Source: Paucibacter sp. TC2R-5 (GTDB lineage Bacteria > Pseudomonadota > Gammaproteobacteria > Burkholderiales > Burkholderiaceae_C). From it: DNA of 64,000 nt. The DNA is taken from positions 329,884 to 393,883 of the forward strand of contig NZ_JAJIRQ010000002.1 of NCBI RefSeq assembly GCF_025717605.1, in the 5' to 3' direction. Both the position numbers and the translations under genes were made by a program. Positions within the stretch are counted from its first letter, which is position 1; each line of letters starts with the position of its first letter. Below the pieces are notes generated by a model. The model ran no database searches. It saw nothing but the letters and a program-made list of their open reading frames with translations, and was not told the origin of the DNA. Below are positions 3 to 14,951 of the stretch, piece after piece.

Positions 3-2624
3 GACCCGGAGCGAGCCTCGCCCGACAGCGTGGGCGCGCTTTCGCGCCAGGCGCGCAAGCTGGCCCTGCAGGCCGAGGCCGGCCGCATCCTCGTCAGCGC
101 CGAGCTGCAACAGCAAAGCGAGCGCCATCACCGCTTTGCCGCCATGGCGGGGCCCGGTGGTAGCGCCAGCCTGCTGGGCGCCCGAGCACCCCAAGCCCGC
201 GGCCGGATCGACGCGCTCAAGCCCATGGTCGGCCGCAACACCGAACTGGCGCTGCTGCGGCAAGAATGGCTTCTCGCTCAAGGCAGCGCGCGCACGGTCT
301 GGGTGCAAGGCGAACCTGGCCTGGGCAAGACCCGGCTGCTGCAGGCCTTGCGCCAGCATGTGGCGGCCGCTGCGGATGGCGCGCCAACGCCGATCTCCCA
401 ACTTCAGTGCCGCCCCGAATATCGCCACACGCCCTTGGAGCCAGTGCGGGCCACGCTGCGCCGGCGCATAGGCGCCGCACTGAAGGGTGATGCAGCGCAG
501 GCAGAGGCCGCCCTCAGCGCGCTGCTGCAGCATGCGGGACTGCCGCCGGCGAGCCATGTGGCCGCGCGCGCCCTGCTGCGTCCGCTGCTGCTCCAACACC
601 AGAACAAGTCGGGCCCGGCAGAGCCCTTGCACATGCGTGAGCTGCACACCCTGCTGTGCGATCTCTTCGAAGGCCTAGCCCAGGGCCGGCCGCAGCTCAT
701 GCTGTTGGAAGATCTGCAATGGGCCGACCCGTCCACGCTGGAGCTGCTGCAGCTGCATCTCCAACGACAACTTCGGCGCCCCGCCGCGCAGCGCGCCCCG
801 GGCCTGCTGCTGCTGAGCTCGCGCGAGGTGCCGCCCGACGATGTGCGCGCCAGTCTAGACCTCTGCCTGAATCTTCAGCCCCTGCCGCCCGAAGACATGT
901 GCCGCCTGATTGAGCAACTCGACAGCGCGCCGGCTTCGGCCGCGCAGCGCCTGCAAGTGCTGCAGCGTGCCGGCGGCGTGCCACTGTTTGCCGAAGAGCT
1001 GGCACGCTCGCTGCGCCTGCGCCCGACCGACAAAGTGCCGGCCACGCTGTGGGACTTGTTGGCCGCCAGCCTGGACCGCCTGCCGCCCGAAGCCAAGCGC
1101 CTGGCCCAGGGCGCGGCCCTGCTGGGCAGCACCTGCTCGCCCGCCCTGTTGCAAGAGCTGCTGCAGTTGCCGGCCGGGCCGCTGGCCCAGCAATTGGCGC
1201 AACTGGAACGGCTGGACCTGCTGCAAGCCATTGAGTCGCAACACTGGCAGTTTCGCCATGCCTTGATCCGCGACGCTGCGCTGGAGACCCTCAGCGCCAG
1301 CGAGCGCCGCGCCCTGCACCGGCGTGCCGCCCAGGCCTTGATGGGCCCCTTCGCCGCCCAGGCCGCCGATGCTCCCGAGGCCCTGGCCCAGCATCTGCAC
1401 GCTGCCGGCGACCCGGCGGCCGCGCATTACTGGCTGCAAGCGGCCGAGCGGGCCGCCGCCCAATCGGCCCACCAAGAAGCACGCCATGGCTTCGAGCAAG
1501 GACTGGCCGCCTTGCAGCTACCCGAGGCAGCACCCGCCCTGGTGCAACGCTTGCGCCTGCCCTTGCTGCTGGGCCTGGGGCATGGCCTGTTGGCTCTGGA
1601 GGGCTATGGCTCGCCGAACGCGCGCCAGTGCTACCGCCAAGCGCTGCAGGCCTGCGATGAGCCTGGCGCCGCCAGCAGCCCGGGCCAGCGCTTCCAGGTA
1701 CTCTGGGGCTTGTGGCTGGGCAGCCGCAGCGGCCCGGGCGAAGGCCCGGTGCTGAATCTGGTGCAAGAGCTGCTGGCGGTGGCCGCCGACACCGGGGACG
1801 CCGCTGCCGCTGTGCAAGCGCGTTATGCCCTGGGCAACAACCTCTTCTTCCTGGGCCAGTTGCAGGCCTCTTGCGAGGCCCTGGCCGAAGCGGCCGCCGC
1901 CGGGGACCGCCTGCCGCCGCGCCAGCGCGCCCAGCTGACCCAGCGTTTTGGCGAGCATGGCGGCATCGCTGCCCGCGCCATGCTGGGCTGGCCGCTGGCC
2001 TTGCAGGGCCGCATCGAAGAAGCCTTGCAACAAACAAACCAGGGCCTGCAGCAAGCGCGCGAGCTCGGCCATGCCCAGACCCTGGGCTTTGCTCTGACCA
2101 TGGCGGGCGTGCTGCATCGCCATCTGCGCCGGCCCGAAGCCGCACTGCCTCTGAGCATGGAGCTGCTGGCGCTGGCCCAGCGCCATGGCCTGGCCCTGTG
2201 GCAGGCGGTGGGCGCCCTGGTGTTGGGCTGGAGCCAGGCGGCCGGCGGCGACCCGGACGGCCTGCTGCCCATCCGCCAGGCCGCCAGCGCCTCGGCCGTG
2301 GCCATGCCCAGCACCGAAGCGACCTTTCTCTCCTTCCTGATCGAGTCGCTGCTGAGCCTCGGCCAGGCCGAGGAAGCCCTGAGCCAGATCGACGCCTGCT
2401 TGCCCAAGGCGCATGAACGCCAGGAGCTCTACCTGCTGCCCGAACTCTGGCGCATGCGTGCCCAGGCCTTGGCGTCCCTAGGCGCGCCGTGCGGCGAGAT
2501 TGAAGAGGCGCTGGATCGGGCCGTTCAGGCCGGCCGCGCCATGGGTGCCGAGCTGCTCTTGCAGCGCAGTGCCGCCCAAGCCCTGGCACTGATCAACGGC
2601 GATTCAACGCAAATTCAACGCTAG
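3..2624 (+). CDS. AAA-ATPase/TPR signalling protein, 5' end outside window
   Basis: Partial at its 5' end: the frame is open from base 3, and the first in-frame start-like codon (GTG at 30) falls inside sequence resembling the end of a class III nucleotide cyclase domain (ILVSAEL region). A VGR-N-E-L-type linker then leads into an AAA_16/STAND-like ATPase with Walker A GEPGLGKT (309-332) and a Walker B block, LMLLEDLQWAD (about 693-728). The C-terminal half is Ala/Leu-rich helical repeat sequence of TPR type. Proteins with cyclase, AAA and TPR parts are usually large cytoplasmic signalling regulators. Whether this one has an intact cyclase domain cannot be seen. It ends 68 bases before a porin-like gene on the same strand and may belong to that system. 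Confidence 0.75.
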   Translation, partial: DPERASPDSVGALSRQARKLALQAEAGRILVSAELQQQSERHHRFAAMAGPGGSASLLGARAPQARGRIDALKPMVGRNTELALLRQEWLLAQGSARTVWVQGEPGLGKTRLLQALRQHVAAAADGAPTPISQLQCRPEYRHTPLEPVRATLRRRIGAALKGDAAQAEAALSALLQHAGLPPASHVAARALLRPLLLQHQNKSGPAEPLHMRELHTLLCDLFEGLAQGRPQLMLLEDLQWADPSTLELLQLHLQRQLRRPAAQRAPGLLLLSSREVPPDDVRASLDLCLNLQPLPPEDMCRLIEQLDSAPASAAQRLQVLQRAGGVPLFAEELARSLRLRPTDKVPATLWDLLAASLDRLPPEAKRLAQGAALLGSTCSPALLQELLQLPAGPLAQQLAQLERLDLLQAIESQHWQFRHALIRDAALETLSASERRALHRRAAQALMGPFAAQAADAPEALAQHLHAAGDPAAAHYWLQAAERAAAQSAHQEARHGFEQGLAALQLPEAAPALVQRLRLPLLLGLGHGLLALEGYGSPNARQCYRQALQACDEPGAASSPGQRFQVLWGLWLGSRSGPGEGPVLNLVQELLAVAADTGDAAAAVQARYALGNNLFFLGQLQASCEALAEAAAAGDRLPPRQRAQLTQRFGEHGGIAARAMLGWPLALQGRIEEALQQTNQGLQQARELGHAQTLGFALTMAGVLHRHLRRPEAALPLSMELLALAQRHGLALWQAVGALVLGWSQAAGGDPDGLLPIRQAASASAVAMPSTEATFLSFLIESLLSLGQAEEALSQIDACLPKAHERQELYLLPELWRMRAQALASLGAPCGEIEEALDRAVQAGRAMGAELLLQRSAAQALALINGDSTQIQR

Positions 2625-2692
2625 GCCGACAAGCTCTCGCTTAATTTCAGGCCCGCCGATCAAGACGCGGGTCTCAGCGAGGGGATGCTTTG

Positions 2693-4054
2693 ATGTTGGC
2701 AAGACCAAAAAAACACAGGCGATGCGCAGCGGCGTGGGCGCTGGCGGGCCTGGGCCTGCTGGCCAGCGCCAGCGGGCAAGCGGCCGAGGAAGCCAGCGAA
2801 GGCCGGGGCAACCCGCTGCGCTTCTCCGGCTTCGCCACTTTGGGCCTCGCCCATAACGACAACGCCACCGCAGGCGCCATTACTTCCTTTTCTCAGCTCA
2901 AGCCGGTGCAGCAAGGCTGGTCGGCCAATATGGACACGGTGCTGGGCCTGCAACTGGAATGGCAGCCGCTGAGCGGCACCACGTTTCAAGTGCAAGGCGT
3001 AGCCCGGGCGGGTGAGGACATGCAGCCGCGCCTGCGCATCGCCGCCCTGCGCCAGCAGCTGGGCCATGGCCTGAGCTTGAACCTGGGCCGCATGCGCAGC
3101 CCGCTGTTTTTCGATTCCAGCATTGCCGAGATCGGCTATGCCAATCTGACCGTGCGCCCGGCGCCGACCATCTACGCCCTCACCAATAGCGTGGCGGGTC
3201 TGGACGGCGCGGACCTGCATTGGCGCCTCAACTTCGGCGACGCCAGCGTGCTGGCTCAAGTCTTCGGCGGCCGTTACGACTACACCCACCGCTTCAACAA
3301 TTTCTCACCCGCCCTGTCGGCCGACGCCAGCTTGCGCGGCATGCTCGGCTTCAGCCTCAGCGCCAATCTGCAAGACCTGACCGTGCGCGTCTCGCGCACC
3401 GAAATTGACCGTTATGTGCTGCGCTCCGAGCAGGTCAGCCAGATCAACAGCGGGCTGGACCAACTCAGCGGCGCCTTGCAGCAAATGGCGCTCAACCCCC
3501 AGCTGCCGCCGACGCTGCAGTCCGGCTTGCAAGCCAAGGCCCAAGGCCTGGATGCCCTGCGCAACCCCTTCGACAACCGGCCCGTCTACACCAGCCTCGG
3601 CATGGACGGCAACTGGCAGCAATGGCGCTTGTTGGCCGAGCTGACCTGGATGGACCCGCGCAACGATCTGGTCGGCCGAGGCACCGGCTACAGCCTCACG
3701 CTGGCACGCAGCTTCGGGGACTTCACGCCCTATCTGAGCCTGGCCCGGCTCAAGCGCTCCAGCGCCAGGCTCAACACCAGCGCTCTGGCGCCCTCCGGTC
3801 TCGACCCGCAGCTCGACGCGGGCTTGAACCAGCTCAAGCAAGGCTTTGATCGCGCCCAGCAGTTCGCCGACATCAGCAGCCGCTCGGTCAGCATCGGCCT
3901 GCGCTGGGACTGGCGCGAGAACATGGCGATCAAGACCCAGCTCGACCAGATACGCACGCCCAACGCCAGCACGCCCGGCCCGCTGGCCGTGCCCGTGCTG
4001 CCCTTCGACAACAAGCTCCAGCTGTTCAGCGTCACGCTGGACCTGGTGTTCTGA
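2693..4054 (+). CDS. Putative outer-membrane beta-barrel (porin-like) protein
   Basis: The 453-residue product has a basic N-terminus and a hydrophobic stretch ending near ASGQA, consistent with a Sec signal peptide of about 30 residues. The mature part alternates polar and hydrophobic residues with many aromatic ends (for example LGRMRSPLFFDSS and VFGGRYDYTHRF) and finishes in Phe (TLDLVF), the usual C-terminal signature of outer-membrane barrels. The ATG at 2693 is preferred over the TTG at 2690 because GAGGGG lies 8 bases upstream. I do not recognise a specific porin family; substrate is unknown. It is followed after 13 bases by a PstS-like gene and then by a SpoIIE/STAS pair, so it may be the outer-membrane part of the same system. 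Confidence 0.7.
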   Translation: MLARPKKHRRCAAAWALAGLGLLASASGQAAEEASEGRGNPLRFSGFATLGLAHNDNATAGAITSFSQLKPVQQGWSANMDTVLGLQLEWQPLSGTTFQVQGVARAGEDMQPRLRIAALRQQLGHGLSLNLGRMRSPLFFDSSIAEIGYANLTVRPAPTIYALTNSVAGLDGADLHWRLNFGDASVLAQVFGGRYDYTHRFNNFSPALSADASLRGMLGFSLSANLQDLTVRVSRTEIDRYVLRSEQVSQINSGLDQLSGALQQMALNPQLPPTLQSGLQAKAQGLDALRNPFDNRPVYTSLGMDGNWQQWRLLAELTWMDPRNDLVGRGTGYSLTLARSFGDFTPYLSLARLKRSSARLNTSALAPSGLDPQLDAGLNQLKQGFDRAQQFADISSRSVSIGLRWDWRENMAIKTQLDQIRTPNASTPGPLAVPVLPFDNKLQLFSVTLDLVF

Positions 4055-4067
4055 CGAGGGGCCGGTC

Positions 4068-4544
4068 ATGACACTCAATCATCAACACGTTCACCGCGCT
4101 CGCTTGGCCCTGCTCTCGCTGCCCGCTCTGCTGGCCTTGCTGTGTTTCAGCGCGGCGCAACCCGCCCTGGCCGGCAATGAGCTGATCGTCATCGCCCACA
4201 AAGATGTGAGCCTGGACAAGATCAGCCCCGAGCGCATGACGCAGATCTATCTGCGCCAGCAACAGAGCTGGCCCGACGGCCAAGCCATCCAACCCATAGA
4301 CCTGCGCGAAGGCAGCGGCCTGCGCCGCGCCTTTTACGACCAGGTCACCGGCCGCAGCCCAGGCCAGCTGCGCGCCTTCTGGGCCCGCCAGAGCTTCACC
4401 GGCATGGGCTTGCCGCCGCGTCAGGTGGACAGCGACGAGGAAGTGACCCGCCTAGTGCAGAGCACGCCGGGCGCGATTGGCTATGTGTCGCGCAAGCCCA
4501 GCGGCGCCGCCGTCAAAGTCCTGTTAACTGCCAACCTCGACTGA
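4068..4544 (+). CDS. Small PstS-like phosphate-binding-family periplasmic protein
   Basis: The 158-residue product has an N-terminal signal peptide (hydrophobic stretch about 14-33, ending near AQPALAG). The mature part resembles the short 'phosphate ABC transporter substrate-binding' family related to PstS: a start like NELIVIAHKDV, an IYLRQQ-WPDG segment, and an LVQSTPGAIGYVS segment typical of the second lobe. At about 125 mature residues it is far shorter than true PstS (about 320), so it probably senses or interacts rather than feeding an ABC importer, and no pstCAB genes are visible. The start is the ATG after the GAGGGG sequence at 4056-4061. It sits 13 bases after the porin-like gene and 5 bases before the phosphatase gene, so an operon is likely. 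Confidence 0.7.
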   Translation: MTLNHQHVHRARLALLSLPALLALLCFSAAQPALAGNELIVIAHKDVSLDKISPERMTQIYLRQQQSWPDGQAIQPIDLREGSGLRRAFYDQVTGRSPGQLRAFWARQSFTGMGLPPRQVDSDEEVTRLVQSTPGAIGYVSRKPSGAAVKVLLTANLD

Positions 4545-4549
4545 CGCGC

Positions 4550-7090
4550 ATGACAGCCACTGTCACCGACCTCGGCCGGGCTCAAGCCCGCTGGCTGCGC
4601 CTGCTGGCGCCGGCCAGCTGGCTGTCGGGGCGGCTGAGTTTTTCGCGCAAATTTCTGCTGGTCGGCGCGGTCATGCTGCTGGCCCTGGCCTTGCTGAGCT
4701 GGCCGCTGCTGCGCAAAGCCGGGCAAGACGCACAAAGCGCCGAGCTGGAACGCCGCGGCCTGAGCGCACTGGCGCAGCAGGCCGTCGTACTCGACACCCT
4801 GGTGCGTCAGCGCGGTGAACTCAAAGGCGAGCGCAGTGGCCGCCCGGCGGCCCAAGCCGAACTGCAAGCCCTGCTGGCCTGGGCCACCGCACCGCAGCTG
4901 CCGCCCAACGCGCCACCCAACAGCTTGCCCGCGCTGGCCCTGCGCCTGCAGCAGCAGTGGCAGCAGCTGCAAGAGCTGGCCGCGCAAGACGACGACGCCC
5001 AGCGCCGCTTTGCTGCCCACACCGGCACCATCAACGCCTTGCTGGCCCTGATGCGCGAGAGCGCTCGCGCCCACCGCCTCAACGTCGACCCGACGCTGGA
5101 CGCCGCCTTCGAGATGCTCAGCCACCGGCTGCCCCTGCTGATGGAAACACTGTCCAAGCAGCAGGACGCGCTGGCGCTGTCCAGCGGCAGCATGGCCAGC
5201 TATGCCTTGGCCGCCCAGGTGGTGCTGAGCGAGGCCACGCCGGCCCTGCGCGCCGGCATGCAGCAGCTACTGGCGCCCGGCGACCGTGCCGGCCTGCAAG
5301 CGCAGCTGGACGAGCTACTGGCTCGCATCGAGCGCCAGCAAGACGCGGTCGACAAGGTGCTCGATGCACCCCAAGCTCTTGCCGAGCTGCGTCCCCTCGC
5401 CAGCGCCAATCTGGCTCAAGCCCAGGCCCTGCTGGTGGCAAGCACCGCGCAGGCCGATGCCCTGCTGCAAGAGCGCCTGACCCAGCTGCGCCGCAGCCAG
5501 TGGCAGGTGGGCGCCCTGCTGGTGGGGGCGATGGCGGCGATCGCCTACTTGTTCGCCGGCATCTATGTGTCCACGTTGCGCTCGCTGCGCCGGCTCTCGC
5601 AAGGCACGCAAGACTTCTGCGCCGGCCGGCTGGACACCCGCATCCGCATCGACACGCAGGACGAGCTGGTCCTGGTGGCGGGCAATTTCAACACCGTGGC
5701 GTCTGAGGTCGGGCGCCTGCTCGATGTGATCCGCGAGCAGAACGAATCGCGCCAGCGCGAGCTTGAGCGCCTGGTGCAACAGCGCACGCTTGAGTTGGCC
5801 GACAAGAACGATCAGTTGCACCTGGCCGCCCTGCGCGTGCAAGAGGAGCTTGAATCGGCCCGCGATATGCAGCAGGCCATCCTGCCCCAGCACTTCCCCG
5901 ACACGGCGGACTTCTCCATGCAGGCCTGCATGCACCCGGCGCGCGAGCTGGGGGGTGATTTTTACGACTGTTTCGCGCTGTCAGACGGCCGCTGGGGCTT
6001 TCTGGTGGCCGATGTGGCGGGCAAGGGCGTGGGCGCTGCCTTCTTCATGGCCGTCTCACGCACCGTGCTGCAAGACCTGGCGCAAGACGAACTGAGCCCC
6101 GAAGAAGTGCTGGCCCGCGCCAACGATGTGCTCAGCGGGCGCAACCCCATGGAGCTATTCGTCACCGCCTGCTACTGCATCTACGACCCGCGCGACGGCA
6201 GCTTGGCCTACGCCAGCGCCGGCCACCCCGCGCCGCTCTTGCGCAGTGCCCAAGGCGAGGTGCAGGCCCTGGACTGCCCGCGCGACATCGCCCTGGGCGT
6301 GCTGCCCGGCATGAGCTACAGCCGCCGATATGCGCAGTTAGCCAGCGGCGACACCCTCTTGCTTTACACCGACGGCATCACTGAAGCCTTTGACGCCGCC
6401 GAACGCGCTTATGGCGACGAGCGCCTGATCGCCTGGCTGCAGGAGAGCCAGGAGCCACAAGCCGCAGACAAATTGGCCAGCCTGGTGCGCGATGTGGCCG
6501 ACTTCGTCGGCGGTGCCGAACCCAGCGACGACCTGACCGCCCTGTTGCTGTGCCGCAAGCCGCGCGTGGACGCTCCCATTGTCGTTACCGCCAATACCGA
6601 ATCCCCCGACCCGTCCGCCAGCCCCCAAGCCCGAGGAGCTCTGACCGTGAGCCACACCCCCCTGGAACTGAAGAACAAAACCTTGCTGCTGGAGCATCGC
6701 CTGCACAGCCGTGTCGAAGAGATCACCCCGCTGGCCGAGGCCGTGGACCAAGCCCTGGCCGATCGGTCAGATCTGGCCTTTGCCGTCAACCTCTGCCTGG
6801 AAGAGCTGATCACCAACACCATCCAGCACGGCCTGCACGGCGCGCCCGACCGCCCCATCCATGTGCGGCTCTCGCGCTCCGACGAGTGGCTGGAGATCAT
6901 TCTCAAAGACGACGCCCCGCCATTCGACCCCTTTGTGGAAGCGCCCGAGCCCAGCCTGGACGCCAGCGTGGAAGAACGCGCCGTGGGCGGCCTGGGTGTG
7001 CACATGGTCAAAACCATGATGGACGAGGTGCGCGCCTTCTACGACGGCAGCGGCAATCTGATCGTGCTGCTCAAGACTCTCAAGCGCTGA
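4550..7090 (+). CDS. Membrane SpoIIE-family PP2C phosphatase fused to RsbW-like ATPase domain
   Basis: The 846-residue protein has a membrane helix at about 34-54, a long helical periplasmic region, a second helix at about 317-340, HAMP (about 340-395), a coiled coil, a SpoIIE/PP2C phosphatase domain (about 445-640) and a C-terminal GHKL ATPase domain (about 700-845). The phosphatase motifs look intact: ELGGDFYD, VADVAGKGVGAAFFMA, YASAGHPAPLL, LLYTDGITEAFD and SDDLTALLL. The ATPase domain has an N-box (CLEELITNTIQHG), DDAPPFDP and VGGLGVHMVK. In RsbU/RsbW-type partner switching the phosphatase dephosphorylates a STAS protein and the kinase phosphorylates it; here both activities are in one chain. 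The STAS gene follows. An in-frame internal start could release the ATPase domain alone. Confidence 0.9.
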   Translation: MTATVTDLGRAQARWLRLLAPASWLSGRLSFSRKFLLVGAVMLLALALLSWPLLRKAGQDAQSAELERRGLSALAQQAVVLDTLVRQRGELKGERSGRPAAQAELQALLAWATAPQLPPNAPPNSLPALALRLQQQWQQLQELAAQDDDAQRRFAAHTGTINALLALMRESARAHRLNVDPTLDAAFEMLSHRLPLLMETLSKQQDALALSSGSMASYALAAQVVLSEATPALRAGMQQLLAPGDRAGLQAQLDELLARIERQQDAVDKVLDAPQALAELRPLASANLAQAQALLVASTAQADALLQERLTQLRRSQWQVGALLVGAMAAIAYLFAGIYVSTLRSLRRLSQGTQDFCAGRLDTRIRIDTQDELVLVAGNFNTVASEVGRLLDVIREQNESRQRELERLVQQRTLELADKNDQLHLAALRVQEELESARDMQQAILPQHFPDTADFSMQACMHPARELGGDFYDCFALSDGRWGFLVADVAGKGVGAAFFMAVSRTVLQDLAQDELSPEEVLARANDVLSGRNPMELFVTACYCIYDPRDGSLAYASAGHPAPLLRSAQGEVQALDCPRDIALGVLPGMSYSRRYAQLASGDTLLLYTDGITEAFDAAERAYGDERLIAWLQESQEPQAADKLASLVRDVADFVGGAEPSDDLTALLLCRKPRVDAPIVVTANTESPDPSASPQARGALTVSHTPLELKNKTLLLEHRLHSRVEEITPLAEAVDQALADRSDLAFAVNLCLEELITNTIQHGLHGAPDRPIHVRLSRSDEWLEIILKDDAPPFDPFVEAPEPSLDASVEERAVGGLGVHMVKTMMDEVRAFYDGSGNLIVLLKTLKR
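6633..6649 (+). promoter_or_regulatory. Candidate internal ribosome-binding site and GTG start
   Basis: GAGGAG (6633-6638) stands 8 bases before a GTG (6647-6649) that is in frame with the phosphatase-kinase fusion. The GTG lies in the linker just before the GHKL ATPase domain. Initiation here would give a separate RsbW-like protein of about 147 residues, the normal size of a free anti-sigma kinase. The sequence match is clear; use of the site is an inference. Confidence 0.4.
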
Positions 7091-7150
7091 AGGCCGCAAG
7101 GCCTGCGCCCCAAACCACAAAACCCCTCAGTCAAAGAAAGAGCCCCCACC

Positions 7151-7495
7151 ATGAACTTCGAACACCAAAGCAGCGATGAACAAGGCAGCCGCCTGCTCAG
7201 CCTGAAAGGCCGCATCGACAGCGCCACCGCCGGCGCCTTTGAGCAAGCCGTACAAGACCTGTTCGCCACGCCGGGCGCCCGTGCATTGCTGGACTTTGCC
7301 GCCGTGGACTACATCTCCAGCGCCGGCCTGCGCGTGGTGCTGATGGCCGCCAAGCGCGCCAAGCAAGCGCAAGGCCGCTTGCTGCTCTGCGGCCTGCCCC
7401 AGCATGTGCGTGAGGTGTTTGAGATCAGCGGCTTCTTGAAGATCATTGACAGCGTCACAGACCGTTCCGAGGGTCTTCGTCAACTGAACGCCTGA
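7151..7495 (+). CDS. STAS-domain anti-sigma factor antagonist
   Basis: A 114-residue single-domain STAS protein of the RsbV/SpoIIAA type. The signature DYISSAGLRVVL contains the usual phosphorylatable serine (Ser57, just before Ala-Gly-Leu). In partner switching, the dephosphorylated form binds and titrates the anti-sigma/kinase; the upstream SpoIIE domain would remove the phosphate and the GHKL domain would add it. An AAAGAG sequence precedes the ATG by 8 bases. It lies 60 bases after the phosphatase gene and 20 bases before a transporter-like gene, consistent with co-transcription. No sigma factor is encoded nearby, so the output target is unknown and need not be a sigma factor. Confidence 0.9.
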   Translation: MNFEHQSSDEQGSRLLSLKGRIDSATAGAFEQAVQDLFATPGARALLDFAAVDYISSAGLRVVLMAAKRAKQAQGRLLLCGLPQHVREVFEISGFLKIIDSVTDRSEGLRQLNA

Positions 7496-7515
7496 CTGCG
7501 GATTCACGCGGTCTC

Positions 7516-9144
7516 ATGAGCATATTTTTCAGTCTGTTCGCCGGGCTGGGCCTGTTCTTCATCGGTGTCCGCCTGATCAGCAGCAATCTGCGTCAGGTGA
7601 TTGGCCGACGCCTGCGCCAGCTGATTGCGCGCGCTGTCACCAGCGCGGGCTCGCTGGCCTTGTTCGGCCTGCTGGCCGGCGCGGTGATGCAAAGCGTCAA
7701 CGCCGTCATCCATGTGCTGGTGGCCCTGGTCACCGCCGGGGCCATGGACCGCAAGCGCGCCTTCCCCATCATCCGCTGGGCTAATCTGGGCACGTCGATG
7801 CTGGCCCTGGTGGCCGCCATTGATCTGCATGCCCTGGCGCTGTGCCTGGTGGGCCTGACCGGCATCGCCTACTACCAGCAGATCGACCAGTCCACCCGCT
7901 GGCGCCACGCCGTCGGCGCGCTGCTGGGCCTGGGCCTGCTTTTCCTGGGCACCGATTTCATCAAGAGCGGCGCCGCCCTGCTGCGCACCGCCCCCTGGCT
8001 GCGCGAGCAGATCGCCGAGCTGGGCGTCTGGCTGTTGCCCAGCTTCGCCATCGGTGCTGCAGTAGCTTGGGCCGCGCAGTCTTCGACCACGGTGGTCGTC
8101 ATCACCATGAGCCTGGCGGCCGGCGGCCTGATCGGCTGGAACGGCGGTGCAATGCTGGTGATGGGCGCCGGCCTGGGCTCCGCCGCTTCGGCCTGGAACC
8201 TGGCCGGCCGCTTGCAGGGCAGCGCCCGCCAGTTGGTGCTGTTCCAAGTGCTGCTGCGCCTGCAGGGTCTGCTGCTCACCTTGATCTTCTACGCCTGCAA
8301 CCGCTGGCTCTTTGACGACCCCTTCGGTCGCCTGCTCGATCAATTCGACATGGGCTTGCCGGCGCGGCTGGCAGCCTTCTACATGGTGGTGCAAGTGCTC
8401 AGCGACCTGGGCAGCCGCGCGCTGGACAAGCCCAGCCTGCGCTGGTTGGACGCCTGGGCCGCGCCCTCGCTGCAAGAGAACCTGAGCAAGCCGCACTTTG
8501 TGCACGACGAGGCCCTGGACGAGGCCGAAACCGCCCTGCTGCTGGCCGACAAAGAGCAGCAACGCCTGCTCGCCTGCCTGCCCGCCTACCTCGACGCCTT
8601 GCGCCAGGACGCACCCACCGCGCTGGCCTCGGCCGACAAACGCCAGGCCGCCGAGAGCCAGGTGCTGCAACTCTGCGAGCAGTTCTTGGTGGAGCTGGCT
8701 GACCGCCAGCGCAGCCGCGATGTGCTTGAACGCAGCATGGTGCTGCGCGACCGCAACCGCCTGCTCGGCTCGCTGCAGGAGTCGCTGGCCGAGCTGCACC
8801 AGAGCACCCAGGCCGCGATGGGCGAACCCAGCGTCGCCCAGCTGCTGGACCAGCTGGTGCAAAGCCTTCACATGATGCTGGAGACCCTGGCCGAAACCGC
8901 CGCACTTGCCAGACCCGAAGCCGAAGACCTGGCGCTGCTGCGCAGCCTCACCCACGACCGCTCGGAGCTGATGGATGGCATCCGCCGCCGCTTGCAAGGC
9001 AGCGAGCTGGAAGCCGGCTTGCGCCAAGCGGTGTTCAGCGCCACCACGGTGTTTGAGCGCTGCGTCTGGTTGGCGAGACGCTATGTGCTGCTGCTGGACA
9101 GCCCCACCACCTTGCCATCCTTTTCTCCCTCGACCAAGACTTGA
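7516..9144 (+). CDS. Na/Pi-cotransporter-like membrane protein with PhoU-like C-terminus
   Basis: The 542-residue protein has about eight or nine membrane helices in its first 310 residues, arranged as the two inverted repeats of the NptA/PhoU-containing Na+/phosphate symporter family, then a cytoplasmic helical region (about 330-542) with charged heptad-like sequence typical of PhoU-like tails. The second repeat has the expected AQSSTTVVV motif. The first repeat reads MQSVNAVIH where family members normally have QSSSA, so one half of the substrate/Na+ site looks altered. The family imports phosphate or modulates its level; here a sensing role is possible. Position inside a SpoIIE/STAS operon and near a PstS-like gene supports a link to phosphate or another anion. 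Confidence 0.75.
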   Translation: MSIFFSLFAGLGLFFIGVRLISSNLRQVIGRRLRQLIARAVTSAGSLALFGLLAGAVMQSVNAVIHVLVALVTAGAMDRKRAFPIIRWANLGTSMLALVAAIDLHALALCLVGLTGIAYYQQIDQSTRWRHAVGALLGLGLLFLGTDFIKSGAALLRTAPWLREQIAELGVWLLPSFAIGAAVAWAAQSSTTVVVITMSLAAGGLIGWNGGAMLVMGAGLGSAASAWNLAGRLQGSARQLVLFQVLLRLQGLLLTLIFYACNRWLFDDPFGRLLDQFDMGLPARLAAFYMVVQVLSDLGSRALDKPSLRWLDAWAAPSLQENLSKPHFVHDEALDEAETALLLADKEQQRLLACLPAYLDALRQDAPTALASADKRQAAESQVLQLCEQFLVELADRQRSRDVLERSMVLRDRNRLLGSLQESLAELHQSTQAAMGEPSVAQLLDQLVQSLHMMLETLAETAALARPEAEDLALLRSLTHDRSELMDGIRRRLQGSELEAGLRQAVFSATTVFERCVWLARRYVLLLDSPTTLPSFSPSTKT

Positions 9145-9158
9145 GGCTCCCCGCTGTG

Positions 9159-10997
9159 ATGCAAGCCCTCAGCCGCTGGCTGCCCCCGTCCAAGCCGGTG
9201 CGCCGGCCCTTTGATCTGATCTACGCGGCCGATGAATGCCCGCCGCGCGGCGCGCTCGGCCTGCTGGCCCTGCAGCATGCGGCCACGGTGCTGGCCTTGA
9301 TCGCCCATGTGCTGGCAGCCGCCAAGATCGCGGGTTTAAGCCTGCCGCAAACCCACTCCATCGTTGCCATGACCCTGCTGGGCATGGCCATGGGCACCGC
9401 CCTGCAGGCCTGGGGCGGGCGCTGGGGCAGCGGCACGCTGCTGGTCTTCCAGCCCGACCCGATGATGATCACCGTGGCTGCTGCTGCCATCGCCAGCTAC
9501 GGCTTGGGCTCCCTGGTGCAGGTGAGCCTGATCGCCGCCGGCGTCACGCTCTGCGTGGGCCCGCTGATGCGCCATCTGCGCGCCCTGTTCCCACCCACCG
9601 TGGTGGGCACGGTGGTGTGCATGGGCGGCTTAGGGCTGGTCGAGCCGGCCATGCGCAATGCCTTGGGCATACATGAAACGGCCGGCGCAGCCACCGGCTT
9701 GCAAACCCTGCAGATCGACGGCATCAGCGCCCTCATCTCGGGCCCCACCCTGGCCAGCATCGTGGTGCTCTCGGTCTGGGGCGGGCGGCGCTTCAAACTG
9801 CTGGGCGTCTTGGCCGGCTTGTTGATGGGCCTGCTGATCGCCGCCCTCAGCGACCGGCTGCTGGGCCTGGAGTGGCTGCACAGCGCGCCCTGGCTGGCCC
9901 TGCCGCAGCCGATTGCACCCAGCTTCAACCTCGGGCCCGAGATCATCTTCGCCATCGTGCTGATCGCCACGCTCAACCAGCTCGACAACATCGGCTGCCT
10001 GATCGTGATGGACAAGACCGACAACGCCGACTGGAAGCGTGCCGACATGCAGATGGTGGGCCGCGGCATCCGCGCCAATGGCGCGAGTGACTTGTTGAGT
10101 GGCCTGTTCGGCAGCTTCCCCACCGCGCCGAGCTCCGCCAATATCGCTCTGGTGCACGCCACCGGCTCCAGCAGCCGCTACATCGGCCTGGCCTGCGCGG
10201 CACTGTTACTGCTGGTGGCGATGAGCCCGCTGCTGACCATGGGGCTCACACTCATCCCGCAAGCCGTGCTGGGCGCCATCTCGCTCTACGCCGCCGCGTA
10301 CTTGATCGTCTCCGGCATCGAGATGATCGCCACCCGCGCACTCGACAGCCGTGGCATCTTCATGGTGGGCTTGTCGCTGTGCGCCGGCCTGGCCACCATG
10401 CTGATGCCGGGCCTCAGCAAGGGCTTGCCCGAGGGCCTGGCCATGCTGGCCGGCGATGGTTTTGTGGTCACCGGCGTTTGCGTGATGGGCCTGAACCTGC
10501 TGTTCCGCCTGGGGACACGCTTGCGCGCCAGCTGCGAGTTGGACCCCCGCCTGGGGCCTATCAGCCACCAGCTCACCGCTTTTGTCGAGCGCCAAGGCGG
10601 CGCCTGGGGCGCCCGCATGGACATCGTCCGCCGCGCGGCCCTGGCCGCACTGGAGGCCAGCGAATCCATTCAAGCCGCAGGCGGCGGCCGCCTGCTGGTG
10701 ATACGCGGCAGTTTTGATGAATTCAACTTCAACCTGGAGCTGATTCATGAGGGCGAGCCGCTGAGTGTCGGCGCTGCGGCAGGTGACGCCTCAGCAGATA
10801 CAGGCAGCGCGACAACGGTGCCCTTGGACCTGGATGCGCTGATGAACAGCGATGAGGACGAAGTGGACATCAAAAGCCAACTCGACGCCGCCATGGCCCG
10901 CGTGTCAGGCGTGCTGATGCGCCACTTGGCCGACAAACTCAGCAGTGCCAGCCTTGGCGAGGGTCAGGCGGTGTTGAGATTGCATTTTGATCATTGA
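9159..10997 (+). CDS. NCS2/SLC23-family permease-like protein with soluble C-terminal domain
   Basis: The 612-residue protein has an N-terminal nucleobase/ascorbate (xanthine/uracil) permease core of about 12-14 helices (residues about 30-455) and about 150 soluble residues after it; ordinary family members stop near 430-480. The NAT signature, normally Q/E/P-N-x-G-x4-T, reads ANIALVHATG here, with Ala for the first residue and Ala for Gly; the usual acidic transport residue corresponds to LDNIG. The tail (RRAALAALEASES, IRGSFDEFNFNLEL, and a final VLRLHFDH) faintly resembles a worn GHKL/RsbW fold, but that is a guess. Starts at 9156 (GTG) or 9159 (ATG) are equally possible, placed just past the stop of the Na/Pi-like gene. 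Last gene of the run. Confidence 0.7.
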   Translation: MQALSRWLPPSKPVRRPFDLIYAADECPPRGALGLLALQHAATVLALIAHVLAAAKIAGLSLPQTHSIVAMTLLGMAMGTALQAWGGRWGSGTLLVFQPDPMMITVAAAAIASYGLGSLVQVSLIAAGVTLCVGPLMRHLRALFPPTVVGTVVCMGGLGLVEPAMRNALGIHETAGAATGLQTLQIDGISALISGPTLASIVVLSVWGGRRFKLLGVLAGLLMGLLIAALSDRLLGLEWLHSAPWLALPQPIAPSFNLGPEIIFAIVLIATLNQLDNIGCLIVMDKTDNADWKRADMQMVGRGIRANGASDLLSGLFGSFPTAPSSANIALVHATGSSSRYIGLACAALLLLVAMSPLLTMGLTLIPQAVLGAISLYAAAYLIVSGIEMIATRALDSRGIFMVGLSLCAGLATMLMPGLSKGLPEGLAMLAGDGFVVTGVCVMGLNLLFRLGTRLRASCELDPRLGPISHQLTAFVERQGGAWGARMDIVRRAALAALEASESIQAAGGGRLLVIRGSFDEFNFNLELIHEGEPLSVGAAAGDASADTGSATTVPLDLDALMNSDEDEVDIKSQLDAAMARVSGVLMRHLADKLSSASLGEGQAVLRLHFDH

Positions 10998-11072
10998 AAG
11001 CGCAAGAGCACCTCGTTGGCACTGAGGTCTGCAGGGCAAATACCTTGGCCAAGTGCCCAGGCTGCCGCTTGC

Positions 11073-11999
11073 TCAATCCGCCAAGGCAGCCACCAAACAA
11101 TCGATCCAAACCCGCAGCTTGGGCGCCACAAACCGGTTCGATGGATAGAGCAGCCAAGCCATGCCGGCATAGTCGGTGACATGCTCCCAATCCGCCAGCA
11201 CAGGCAGCAAGTCCCCGCTCGCCAAGGCCTCACGCGCGACAAACTCGGGCAGGCTGGCGATGCCCAAGCCGTGCAGCGCGCCCTCCAGGCGCAGTTCGCT
11301 GTGGTTGGCGACATAACGCCCTTTGACCTTGACCACGAGCGCCTCGCCGCCTCGCTTGGCAAAACGCCAATGCCGGTCTCGCTCGTCCTCACCCAGGTAC
11401 AGACAGCTATGCCCAGCCAGTTCGCGCGGATGGGCCGGTGCGCCGTGCTGGCGCAAGTAGGCCGGGCTGGCGCACAGCATATGGCGCAGGCGTAGCAAAG
11501 GCCGGCCGGCCAGACCCGGCGGCGGCGCGTCGCCGACTCGGATCGCCAGGTCAATCGCCTCTTGGTACAGGTCCACCGTACGGTCGGTGACGATCAGCTG
11601 CACATCGACTTGCGGGTACTGCGCCAGGAAGGCCGGCATCAGAGGGTGAATCAAATGCCGCGCGATCGCCTTGGGGCAACTGACGCGCAAGAGTCCGCTT
11701 GGCGCTGACGCTTTGTCCGCCAGGCCGCTGTCGCTCAAGGCCATCACCTCGCGTGCCGCCGCCAGCATCTGCTGGCAATGCGCATAGGCGGCCGCTCCCG
11801 CTTCGGTCAGGCGCAGTTTGCGGGTTGTGCGCTCCAGCAAGCGCACCCGCAGCAAGGCCTCCAGACGCGCCACTTGGCGGCTCGCCGCCGAGGGGCTGAC
11901 GCCGGCTTGCCGCGCCGCCGCCGAGAAGCTCCCGGCTTCGACCACGCTGGCAAACATGGCCATATCGGGCAGCGCGTCAAACGAGTAATTGATGCTCAC
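11073..11999 (-). CDS. LysR-family transcriptional regulator
   Basis: A 308-residue LysR-type regulator. The N-terminal winged helix-turn-helix (about residues 10-68) has the family pattern FASVVEAGSFSAAARQAGVS-PSAASRQVARLE, followed by a linker helix and the two-lobed effector domain (LLRVSCPKAIARHLIHPLMPAF). It is transcribed divergently from an EamA-type exporter 91 bases away, the classic arrangement in which the regulator controls the neighbour. The effector is unknown. Its 3' end converges with the NCS2-like gene across a 75-base gap. Confidence 0.92.
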   Translation of the reverse strand: MSINYSFDALPDMAMFASVVEAGSFSAAARQAGVSPSAASRQVARLEALLRVRLLERTTRKLRLTEAGAAAYAHCQQMLAAAREVMALSDSGLADKASAPSGLLRVSCPKAIARHLIHPLMPAFLAQYPQVDVQLIVTDRTVDLYQEAIDLAIRVGDAPPPGLAGRPLLRLRHMLCASPAYLRQHGAPAHPRELAGHSCLYLGEDERDRHWRFAKRGGEALVVKVKGRYVANHSELRLEGALHGLGIASLPEFVAREALASGDLLPVLADWEHVTDYAGMAWLLYPSNRFVAPKLRVWIDCLVAALAD

Positions 12000-12090
12000 A
12001 GCACATAAGTGTTATTCCGATCGACAGGATTATCACCACACAGGCAAAACCGAATAATGCGATCTCGACTTGCATTCACCCTAGAAAACC
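12000..12090. promoter_or_regulatory. Divergent LysR/EamA promoter region
   Basis: The 91 bases between the divergent start codons are AT-richer than the flanks and contain an inverted pair TTATTC (12011-12016) and GAATAA (12051-12056), as expected of a LysR-type operator region. Neither start has a strong Shine-Dalgarno sequence. The operator assignment is inferred from the layout. Confidence 0.4.
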
Positions 12091-13011: not shown

Positions 13012-13914
13012 ATGCCCAGCCCTCTCAAACCCAGCAAAGCAAGGCCCGTCAAGCTGCGCGCTGGCCTGACGCTGGAGCAAGGCTTTGCCTTGATCGCGCG
13101 CAACTGCTTGCGCCAAGTTAGGGCCAATGAGGCCGGTCTGCGGCTCAGCGAGGAGCCCGAATTCGTCCACCAGCTACGCGTCGGCTTGCGGCGGCTGCGC
13201 TCGGCTTTGGCATTGTTCAAACCTTGGATCACACTGCCGCCCGCCTTGGCCGACGAGATAGCCTGGCTGGGCCTGACGCTGGGCGCGGCGCGCGATGCCG
13301 AGGTGCTGGCCGGCACCACCCTGCCCGCCGTGCTGCTGGGCAGCGCCGGTCAGGAAGAGTTAGACGGGCTGCAAAAAGCAGCCGCAAGCCTGGCGCAGCG
13401 GTGCCGCCGCAAGGCCATCCAAGCCGTGAGCTCCGAGCGCTATCTGAAGCTGATGGCGAACTTGGGAAGCTGGCTCAAGGCAAAGCGCTGGCGAGAAGAT
13501 TCAGCCTGCCCTGACGGCCTCGCTGCGGCGCTCGACACTGCCGCCAAGCGTATGTTGAAGCAAGGCGACAAGAAGCTGCGTCAGCGGCTGCAGAGCTTGC
13601 AAGACCAAACCACGGCCGAGAACCGGCACCGCCTGCGCATTGCCGTCAAGAAATTGCGTTATGCCAGCGAGTTCTTCAGCGCCATCGCCGGCGCCAAGGT
13701 TGACGCCCGCTTGAATCAGCTGAGCGCATTGCAGGATTTGCTGGGCCAGCTCAATGACGCCGAAGTGGGCCGGCAGCAATTGCTGGACATGGGCCGGGCT
13801 CATCCTGGCCCGGCCGCCTTTGCGCGCGGCGTCTTGTGGGCTCAGTCACAGCAGCAGATTGAAAACCTCGCTCCGCTGCTGCAGGCACTGGGCCCCAAGC
13901 GGCCCGGCTCTTAG
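13012..13914 (+). CDS. CHAD-domain protein (putative polyphosphate-binding)
   Basis: A 300-residue stand-alone CHAD protein with the conserved His-containing helices: FVHQLRVGLRRLRSALALF near residue 45, LGAARDAEVL near 97, and the second-half repeat HRLRIAVKKLRYASEFF near 205 with LQDLLGQLNDAEVGRQ. CHAD domains are helical bundles rich in conserved His, Arg and Lys that bind polyphosphate; many are fused to a CYTH triphosphatase, but no CYTH domain is present here. Its TAG stop overlaps by three bases the TAA stop of the convergent PEP-CTERM gene (shared TTAG at 13911-13914), so no terminator separates them. Confidence 0.9.
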   Translation: MPSPLKPSKARPVKLRAGLTLEQGFALIARNCLRQVRANEAGLRLSEEPEFVHQLRVGLRRLRSALALFKPWITLPPALADEIAWLGLTLGAARDAEVLAGTTLPAVLLGSAGQEELDGLQKAAASLAQRCRRKAIQAVSSERYLKLMANLGSWLKAKRWREDSACPDGLAAALDTAAKRMLKQGDKKLRQRLQSLQDQTTAENRHRLRIAVKKLRYASEFFSAIAGAKVDARLNQLSALQDLLGQLNDAEVGRQQLLDMGRAHPGPAAFARGVLWAQSQQQIENLAPLLQALGPKRPGS

Positions 13915-14951
13915 GCCTGCTTGCGGCGACGCGCTTGCACGCCCAGCAAACCCAGGCCCAGGGCCATCAAGCCGTAGGTCGAAGGCTCAGGCACGGGCTG
14001 AGCGGCCGACAGCACGATCAGCTGTGAGTGCACGCCGGGCATGTCCTTGTAAGTTTGGTCTTGCTCGGCTACCAAGTAGATATTGCCCAACTCGTCGACG
14101 GTCACGCCTTCGATGCCGTTAACCGGCACAACGTTGCTGAGATCGAAGCTGCTCAAGACCTGACCCGCGCGGTTCACTTCGACCAGCTTGCGCGAACCCA
14201 GGCTCAGCACCAGCAGGTTGTCGGCGCCGGGGCCGCCGGCCAGGGCATCTACCGACGACAGCGTCTGCACGTCGGACAAAGTGCTCAAGCCCAGCGAGGT
14301 CGGGTTGAACAAGCTGCTCATGGTGGACGTGCCACCACCCGGCGGGGTGGAGCCATCGCCCGAGGACGACGCCGGGTTGCCGGTGGCCGCAGCGAATGTC
14401 AGCGCGCCCGCCAAGATGTTTTGCGGCGACTGCTGCTTGATGGTGATGAAGCTGCCGCCGTTGCGGGCGTCATAGCTGATGCCCTCGATGCCGTCGTTGC
14501 CGACTTTGTTATTCGCAATCGACACGAAGCTGTTCTTCAGAGCAGCGCTGCCGCCGCTCACGAAATTGAAGCGGTAGACATCTTGCAAACGCTCCTCGCT
14601 GACCACCAGCACGCCATTGCCCAGATAGGCCAGGCCTTCGGTGTCATGTTTGGTGCTGCCGGTGCCGGCCCAGTCAAAAGCCATCTTGCCCAGGGTCTGG
14701 CCGGTGCGCGAGATTTCCACAACGCCCGTGCCTTCATCTCCGACAAAGAACAGCGTGCCACGGTCGCGCGCATAGGTAACGGCCGAAGCCTCCAGACCCG
14801 AAATCAGGCCCGGTGTGGTGCCACCCAAGATGTCCAAGGCATATGTGCCCTTGACGCTGTAGTTGCCCAAGTTGAGAGAGTTGGCGGCGTTGGCGAAGGC
14901 GGGGGCCATCAAGGCAGCGGCGAGGGCGAGGATCAGACGGTTGAGTTTCAT
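13911..14951 (-). CDS. PEP-CTERM-anchored SdiA-regulated-family beta-propeller-like protein
   Basis: A 346-residue secreted protein with an N-terminal signal peptide (hydrophobic to about residue 22, ANA) and a C-terminal exosortase sorting signal: VPEPSTYGLMALGLGLLG then a basic tail ARRRKQA. The body matches the SdiA-regulated (YjiK-like) family, with repeated blocks of the type SGLEASAVTYARDRGTLF, HDTEGLAYLGNGVLVVSEE, GNDGIEGISYDARNGG and VNGIEGVTVDELGNIYLVAE, suggesting a propeller lactonase/phytase-like fold. A low-complexity Ser/Gly/Pro insert lies near residues 195-212. Exosortase would cleave after the PEP motif at the inner membrane and release or transfer the protein to the surface. 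No Shine-Dalgarno sequence is evident. A C/G palindrome lies about 145 bases upstream. Confidence 0.88.
   Translation of the reverse strand: MKLNRLILALAAALMAPAFANAANSLNLGNYSVKGTYALDILGGTTPGLISGLEASAVTYARDRGTLFFVGDEGTGVVEISRTGQTLGKMAFDWAGTGSTKHDTEGLAYLGNGVLVVSEERLQDVYRFNFVSGGSAALKNSFVSIANNKVGNDGIEGISYDARNGGSFITIKQQSPQNILAGALTFAAATGNPASSSGDGSTPPGGGTSTMSSLFNPTSLGLSTLSDVQTLSSVDALAGGPGADNLLVLSLGSRKLVEVNRAGQVLSSFDLSNVVPVNGIEGVTVDELGNIYLVAEQDQTYKDMPGVHSQLIVLSAAQPVPEPSTYGLMALGLGLLGVQARRRKQA

Follow-up and report, generated by a model that had tools for sequence, protein, structure and literature searches.

The window analyzed here is a stretch of 64,000 nucleotides (nt) from Paucibacter sp. TC2R-5 (contig NZ_JAJIRQ010000002.1, positions 329,884 to 393,883), in which positions 2693-10997 hold six open reading frames (ORFs), all on the + strand and with intergenic gaps of 13, 5, 60, 20, and −4 nt. 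The encoded proteins combine a porin-like and a small PstS-like protein, a SpoIIE phosphatase fused to an RsbW-like kinase, a STAS-only protein, a Na/Pi-cotransporter-like protein, and an NCS2-like transporter. We find that this transporter carries a C-terminal domain with the predicted fold of RsbW/SpoIIAB anti-sigma kinases, from which the ATP-binding residues have been lost, and that genes of its family recurrently lie close to STAS genes. The cluster is a real and conserved module, the likely logic of which is sensor cassette, partner switch, and transporter output. We consider it modestly probable that it constitutes a sensor-to-transporter partner switch, in which the STAS protein would dock on the dead-kinase domain of the transporter and gate transport.

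Organization of the six-gene cluster

An earlier interpretation made from the letters alone (termed the sequence-only reading herein) had described six same-strand genes with short gaps, and the exact coordinates and gaps agree with that description. The features are as follows.

2693-4054, + strand: porin-like (outer-membrane-barrel-like) protein, a homologue of which adjoins a PstS-like gene in 13 of 14 loci
4068-4544, + strand: small PstS-like periplasmic protein of about one lobe (PBP_like_2, 7.9e-5, below cut-off)
4550-7090, + strand: membrane HAMP protein with a SpoIIE phosphatase fused to an RsbW-like kinase (Pfam; N-box and G-box columns)
7151-7495, + strand: STAS-only protein of the anti-anti-sigma type with a Ser pair (TIGR00377, 1.3e-20, above cut-off)
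7516-9144, + strand: Na/Pi-cotransporter-like protein, an optional part of the cluster (PF02690, 3.6e-34)
9141-10997, + strand: NCS2-like transporter with a C-terminal degenerate RsbW-like domain, the probable output (Pfam; UraA-like core, Z 20.6)
10500-10997, + strand: the C-terminal RsbW/SpoIIAB-like domain of that transporter, the proposed STAS docking site (structure model; fold Z scores; ATP residues lost)
30-2624, + strand: 3' part of a BTAD-AAA-TPR protein upstream of the cluster (Pfam BTAD, 3.7e-14; AAA_16, 2.5e-15)

The NCS2 frame starts with TTG at 9141, and an ATG at 9159 is a possible alternative start. Separate terminators between the genes, named in the sequence-only reading as a possible objection to a joint module, were not found: none of 15 terminator-like and 2 promoter-like predicted sites lies in a gap between the six genes, and although the number of terminator-like sites exceeds the shuffled mean of 5.9, those in the cluster are all inside coding sequence. 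The reported lack of sigma factor, pstCAB, and nucleobase genes holds for the six genes. The search for a sigma factor, restricted to these genes and the upstream gene, found none, and pstCAB and nucleobase genes are absent from the six, the remainder of the window not having been searched for them.

The transporter carries a C-terminal domain with a predicted anti-sigma kinase fold

The NCS2 protein matches Xan_ur_permease in Pfam (1.1e-44), and model comparison gave a core that is UraA-like (Z 20.6) and also resembles SLC26Dg (Z 15.8) and BicA (Z 15.0). Since the full-length AlphaFold2 (AF2) model was weak (mean predicted local distance difference test [pLDDT] score of 57) and matches in the PDB reached only residues up to ∼460, the C-terminal domain was modeled alone. 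This domain of ∼160 amino acids (aa), which follows the UraA-like core and had been overlooked by the sequence-only reading, is common to distant NCS2 relatives, and our own profile of it had no match in 10 ordinary NCS2 loci.

The AF2 model of the domain, built with 11 sequences, has a mean pLDDT of 76, with most core blocks at 82 to 94, and the predicted order of elements is strand-helix-helix-strand-strand-(loop)-helix-strand-strand. In Foldseek, the top 18 matches were all anti-sigma-factor chains (UsfX, RsbW, and SpoIIAB; E 2.1e-4 to 0.022), and 14 of these chains come from complexes that include a STAS partner. The ten best entries in VIA-align were likewise all anti-sigma kinases (Z 12.9 to 14.0), led by UsfX (Z 14.0, 2.6 Å over 116 residues) and including RsbW (Z 13.4, 2.2 Å over 101 residues), followed by LvrC (10.8), SiaB (9.9), and sensor-kinase domains (≤8.6). 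Alignment of profiles with hhalign against six true RsbW-like kinases was collinear over 125 columns (E 2.4e-5, probability 75%). With columns paired by this profile alignment, the N-box Asn, kept in 6 of 6 true kinases, is gone from 22 of 22 domains; the first Asp of D-x-G is also kept in 6 of 6 and gone from 22 of 22, with a next Asp present in 1 of the 22. Other residues of the domain are strongly conserved (W39 in 20, R42 in 19, and D76 in 21 of the 22). Thus, as an RsbW/SpoIIAB anti-sigma kinase, the predicted fold fits and the ATP-binding residues do not, and judged from the model, the domain looks like a STAS-binding switch half that has no kinase activity.

Partial copies of the NCS2 gene were also seen. 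Partial second copies or 40-aa tails of its C terminus lie downstream of the cluster (L020, 5276-6664; L010, 14804-14923; L007, 13064-13183; loci are numbered with the prefix L herein), and a remnant is present in another species (L031, near 9883-10410). This is repeated duplication and loss.

The cluster encodes parts of an RsbU/RsbW/RsbV-type partner switch

As the sequence-only reading had proposed, SpoIIE phosphatase and RsbW-like kinase are fused in one protein, with Pfam matches to SpoIIE (PF07228, 2e-52), HATPase_c_2 (5.6e-20), and HAMP (1.6e-6); in L018, L019, and L021, phosphatase and kinase are separate ORFs. In the alignment, the fused kinase of the window keeps the Glu, Asn, Asp-Asp, and G2 Gly columns, and the G1 Gly is replaced by Ala. 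The STAS partner protein is equally confirmed by matches to STAS_2 (Pfam, 1.3e-17) and TIGR00377 (NCBIfam, 1.3e-20, above cut-off), and its matches in the PDB are SpoIIAA, RsfB, RsbV, and 7ch8_K. At the presumed phosphorylation site, it aligns with a Ser pair, Ser56/57, and the protein is presumed to be the phospho-substrate of the switch. The parts of an RsbU/RsbW/RsbV-type switch, namely, a SpoIIE domain, the ATP boxes of the kinase, and a STAS-only partner with Ser, are recognizable in the sequence.

Switch genes recur beside the transporter family

A scan with the NCS2 protein yielded 11 loci. The order SpoIIE, STAS, (Na/Pi), NCS2 is kept in 9 of these (L002-L010), with no match to the Na/Pi-like gene in L007 and L009. 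L011, from Ideonella livida, also has no such match and has the order AAA gene, NCS2, porin, PstS-like, SpoIIE, STAS, and L012 is a remnant. Within the genus, 9 of 18 genomes hold a copy of nearly full length, and a remnant is present in one more. The linkage of switch and transporter recurs in other classes of the phylum, so that conserved order outside this genome, the check proposed in the sequence-only reading, is observed. Distant NCS2 relatives (∼49 to 57% and 27 to 35% identical) often lie beside small RsbW-like, STAS, or SpoIIE genes (L023 and L025-L029); no such neighbors were seen in L022, L024, or the 5-kb L030.

In evenly drawn genome samples, with the center genome included in every count, the whole protein was found in 15 of 399 genomes of the family (E 1e-30), and the domain was found in 6 of 369 genomes of the class, 4 of 398 of the phylum, 7 of 150 and 2 of 112 in further samples, and 20 of 116 in one order. 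Neighborhoods were then compared for 61 genes of the transporter family (L011, L013-L030, L032-L050, and L076-L095), with neighbors called by our own small hidden Markov models (2 to 22 sequences each) and a simple ORF caller. These 61 do not include L002-L010 (eight are in genomes already included, and L003, genome G158, was left out), the remnants L012 and L031, the partial second copy in L020, or the window, which is added in tree and label counts (62). Of the 61 genes, 38 have a STAS gene within 5.5 kb, as do 28 of the 51 outside the window's clade; an RsbW-like gene is found within that distance of 31 of the 61 and a SpoIIE gene within that distance of 19. From 73 STAS matches in 14 genomes (∼1.2 per Mb), ∼1.5% would be expected (binomial 1.7e-37, a value that ignores relatedness). 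Whenever the locus of a family gene holds a switch gene at all, STAS is among them (39 of 39 genes); in L095 it is ∼7 kb away, and in L045 and L092 it is the sole switch gene found. In L034 and L035, STAS, NCS2, and SpoIIE genes follow one another, and neither locus gave an RsbW-like match. L039 has a convergent pair of NCS2 genes (8392-10077 and 10132-12024), both with the RsbW-like domain, next to a HAMP protein and without a switch gene in the locus.

As a control, 10 of the 12 ordinary NCS2 genes seen in the genus were used (two on pieces of ∼10.5 kb), and STAS, RsbW, SpoIIE, and carbonic anhydrase were near 0 of these 10 loci. In a tree of 66 rows, including 4 ordinary NCS2 proteins, the family forms one clade (support 100/99) apart from the ordinary NCS2 proteins, and STAS-linked genes fall into five lineages: the window-type clade, L037, L034/L035, L029, and the carbonic anhydrase clade. 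The tree program flags many long branches, and the deep order is unsure.

Na/Pi and NCS2 are common transporter families, so a general stress switch might simply have come to lie beside ordinary phosphate and nucleobase uptake genes. The order kept in 9 of 11 loci, the distant recurrence, the separate clade, and the empty control make such a chance neighborhood extremely improbable, and on synteny, the ordinary-NCS2 control, and the tree, we reject it.

It is quite unlikely, in our estimate, that the C-terminal domain persists as a structural relic and no longer binds STAS, with the switch acting on a remote sigma factor, a cyclase, or another target and the transporters merely coexpressed. 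Roughly one family gene in three lacks a nearby switch gene, and other STAS switches have remote targets according to passages of PMC8256260 and PMC6482189, as a relic would lead one to expect. Against a relic stand the strong conservation of W39, R42, and D76 and the fact that STAS turns up next to family members in several lineages and in more than one gene order.

Several further observations weigh against a docking role of the domain. No switch gene was found in the fetched stretch of 22 of the 62 family genes (6 of them on pieces of <13 kb), and the switchless L022 and L024 belong to the side of the tree that includes the window. The fold comes from a model built with 11 close sequences, and only 8 of the Foldseek matches reach E 0.001. 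With a thinner profile, the hhalign probability fell to 30%. Database searches by sequence, with single sequences or profiles, did not identify the domain as RsbW-like: they gave only subthreshold, unrelated matches in Pfam and, with a PDB profile search, only short matches to unrelated helical proteins. Finally, the STAS protein could serve another target.

Substrate residues and the carbonic anhydrase branch

In comparison to UraA, in which E241, H245, and E290 are substrate-contact residues, the window protein has the changes E241 to D282, H245 to C286, and E290 to A333, and the Q/E-N-x-G motif of NCS2/NAT proteins reads A-N-I-A. The equivalent of D282 is missing as well from L029 and L030 and from the second copies in L026 and L027. 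The change of UraA-type substrate residues argues against a nucleobase as the substrate; it does not show that transport itself is lost.

The sequence-only reading had assigned altered substrate motifs to both transporters. This holds only in part: the NCS2 protein has the D/C/A changes, and in the Na/Pi-like protein the first QSS is QSV and the second QSST is intact. The latter protein matches the Na_Pi_cotrans profile (PF02690, 3.6e-34), and the PhoU-like tail ascribed to it was not recovered, with no PhoU match in Pfam at E up to 1. In the distant L037, a relative with 34% identity is encoded on the strand opposite to the NCS2 gene and ∼1 kb away from it. The Na/Pi subfamily lies within 5.5 kb of 8 of the 61 family genes, and with the L037 protein as the query, 2 of 150 genomes matched at E 1e-20, one being the query's own and the other having the match at a contig end.

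One branch of the family is tied to carbonic anhydrase. Of 19 newly fetched loci from the order of genome G545, 13 have carbonic anhydrase, NCS2, and STAS in that order, 9 of them with an RsbW-like gene within 1 kb; the remaining 6 have neither carbonic anhydrase nor STAS (4 are on pieces of <13 kb). L032, from the same order, shows a matching arrangement, and in L026 and L027, from the window's family, carbonic anhydrase likewise adjoins the second NCS2 copy (Pro_CA in Pfam, 5.2e-46 in L026 and 2.1e-44 in L032). Altogether, carbonic anhydrase lies ≤100 bp from 17 of the 61 genes, although the first copy of L027 counts only through an over-long neighboring ORF call, and stands beside the transporter in 16 loci of relatives. 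No ORF of the window matches our own two-sequence carbonic anhydrase profile. Because carbonic anhydrase adjoins the transporter in this branch, there are hints that the branch's substrate is bicarbonate or CO2.

The porin/PstS-like pair is a reusable cassette

The label porin, given in the sequence-only reading, has no match in Pfam or NCBIfam; it is based on features seen by eye, a signal peptide and a C-terminal Phe, and on homologues that occupy the same position. The PstS-like assignment is backed by a PBP_like_2 match that stays below the cut-off (23 versus 27 bits) and covers the middle of the profile only. PstS-like matches numbered 40 in 25 of 120 genomes of the family (E 1e-6), and the genome of the window has four more besides the protein of the cluster. 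Neighborhoods were inspected for 14 loci, which account for 15 of the 40 matches. Only in L052 is the porin homologue not next to the PstS-like gene, and there a Porin_4 match just below the cut-off takes its place. In 11 of the 14 other loci, a signaling protein is next to the pair: a methyl-accepting chemotaxis protein (MCP) in L053, L054, L057, L060, L061, L062, L063 (on the opposite strand), L064, and L065, a GGDEF-EAL protein in L053 and L059, and a PAS histidine kinase in L052. For L055, L056, and L058, the scan covered only one neighbor each and showed no signaling protein. In L053 (3868-11094), from the window's own genome, two porin/PstS-like pairs lie in tandem, flanked by a CHASE8-GGDEF-EAL gene on one side and an MCP gene on the other. 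The pair is thus a reusable cassette. Since porin and PstS-like matches beside the transporter were found only in the window's clade and L011, and not in L022-L050, the switch-transporter pair looks older, and the cassette would have been recruited to it.

The BTAD-AAA-TPR gene, overlooked by the sequence-only reading, stops 69 nt upstream of the cluster; the full ORF (1,271 aa; L051, 3193-7008) starts ∼1.2 kb ahead of the window. It is upstream in 6 of 11 loci (L002, L004, L005, L008, L009, and L011) and was not found in L006 and L007; the stretches of L003 and L010 do not reach there, and L012 is a remnant. Perhaps its product is the transcriptional regulator of the cluster. Two further observations concern PEP-CTERM signals: in one relative (L016, 3-4727; L010, ∼500-5224), the PstS-like gene is separated from the SpoIIE gene by a 1,574-aa ORF that matches PATR and PEP-CTERM, and the window itself encodes, at 13911-14951 on the − strand, a protein with a PEP-CTERM-like sorting tail as read from its sequence.

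A transporter as the probable output of the switch

The sequence-only reading had treated the transporters as possible sensors and left the output of the STAS switch open. Because the transporter carries the degenerate RsbW-like domain and STAS accompanies it in every switch-bearing locus, it better fits that missing output, and it is more likely to be the output than the sensor. A transporter acting as a sensor, in which solute binding by the NCS2 protein would make the RsbW-like domain hold or release STAS while the output lies elsewhere, is unlikely in our judgment. A docking domain could work in either direction, and the substrate residues differ from those of UraA and vary between branches, both of which would suit a sensor. 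The window cluster, however, includes a likely input cassette of its own, and in one branch the transporter is linked to a metabolic partner, carbonic anhydrase. No other output gene was seen to be kept beside the transporters (among profiles for STAS, RsbW, SpoIIE, carbonic anhydrase, and Na/Pi and BLAST searches for porin, PstS-like, and AAA genes only). As the pair adjoins MCP, GGDEF-EAL, or histidine kinase proteins in most other loci, the input is more plausibly formed by the pair and the periplasmic part of the HAMP protein.

The analysis shows the genes, their recurrent linkage, the predicted fold of the domain, and the loss of its ATP residues; docking, gating, and substrate are what we infer for the sensor-to-transporter switch. 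A solute would pass the porin-like barrel and be held by the small PstS-like protein, which would signal to the periplasmic part of the HAMP protein. The SpoIIE phosphatase and RsbW-like kinase of this protein, both with intact domains, would set the phosphorylation of STAS. Unphosphorylated STAS would leave the true kinase and dock on the degenerate RsbW-like domain of the NCS2 protein, as SpoIIAA docks on SpoIIAB, and gate transport, and phosphorylated STAS would be unable to dock. The same response may include the Na/Pi-like protein as a second, optional transporter, and transcription is probably under the control of the BTAD protein.

Comparison with known systems

According to passages of PMC8256260 and PMC6482189, STAS switches act on sigma or anti-sigma factors, a cyclase, or targets that are not known, and STAS is fused to the transporter in SLC26 proteins. 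Among open-licence PMC titles and the starts of abstracts and in passages of PMC8256260 and PMC6308229, we found no description of a transporter with an RsbW-like domain; the terms "C-terminal," "fusion," and "STAS" have 0 occurrences in PMC6308229, a classification of NCS2. As a tentative proposal, somewhat short of an even chance, the family might form a new class of phospho-switched secondary transporters, with an NCS2-fold carrier, a dead anti-sigma kinase as its regulatory domain, and STAS acting in trans; its carbonic anhydrase branch would be a switchable uptake system for bicarbonate or CO2, and the window's branch would be driven by the porin/PstS-like cassette. If this is true, partner switches extend from sigma factors, anti-sigma factors, and cyclases to the direct control of membrane transport, orphan STAS proteins gain a testable role, and the finding bears on the STAS fold being common to anion transporters and anti-anti-sigma factors. 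The family may also include unrecognized inorganic-carbon transporters.

The input of HsbR and CrsR is a response-regulator receiver, whereas the protein described here is a HAMP membrane protein. As described in passages of PMC6482189, HsbR-HsbA and CrsR-CrsA of Pseudomonas and Shewanella likewise join phosphatase and anti-sigma/kinase in one protein with one anti-sigma-antagonist partner, and their targets are RpoS, FlgM, and the cyclase HsbD, whereas the probable target here is a transporter.

The SiaABCD system of Pseudomonas aeruginosa is similar in two of its parts: the NCBIfam SiaA model matches the HAMP-SpoIIE protein at 1.9e-21, with 76 bits against a cut-off of 700, and SiaB resembles the fold of the transporter's C-terminal domain (Z 9.9). 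SiaA is a membrane HAMP SpoIIE phosphatase. Its system's target, SiaD, is a diguanylate cyclase according to the abstract of PMC8457831, unlike the probable transporter target here.

Among STAS-only proteins, MlaB offers a further comparison, and the PDB chain 7ch8_K ("STAS domain-containing protein") matches the window STAS protein at 2.2e-5. MlaB acts in trans on the Mla lipid ABC transporter and binds its ATPase; we know of no kinase or phosphatase in the Mla system.

UraA and other NCS2 proteins share the transmembrane core of the transporter, which here has an extra RsbW-like domain, has lost the equivalent of Glu290, and belongs to a separate clade. SLC26/SulP proteins have the same transmembrane fold family, and both they and the present transporter end in a cytoplasmic domain of the partner-switch type. 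The arrangement is a mirror image: STAS is fused to the transporter in SLC26/SulP, whereas here the RsbW-like side is fused and STAS is separate and presumably phosphorylated.

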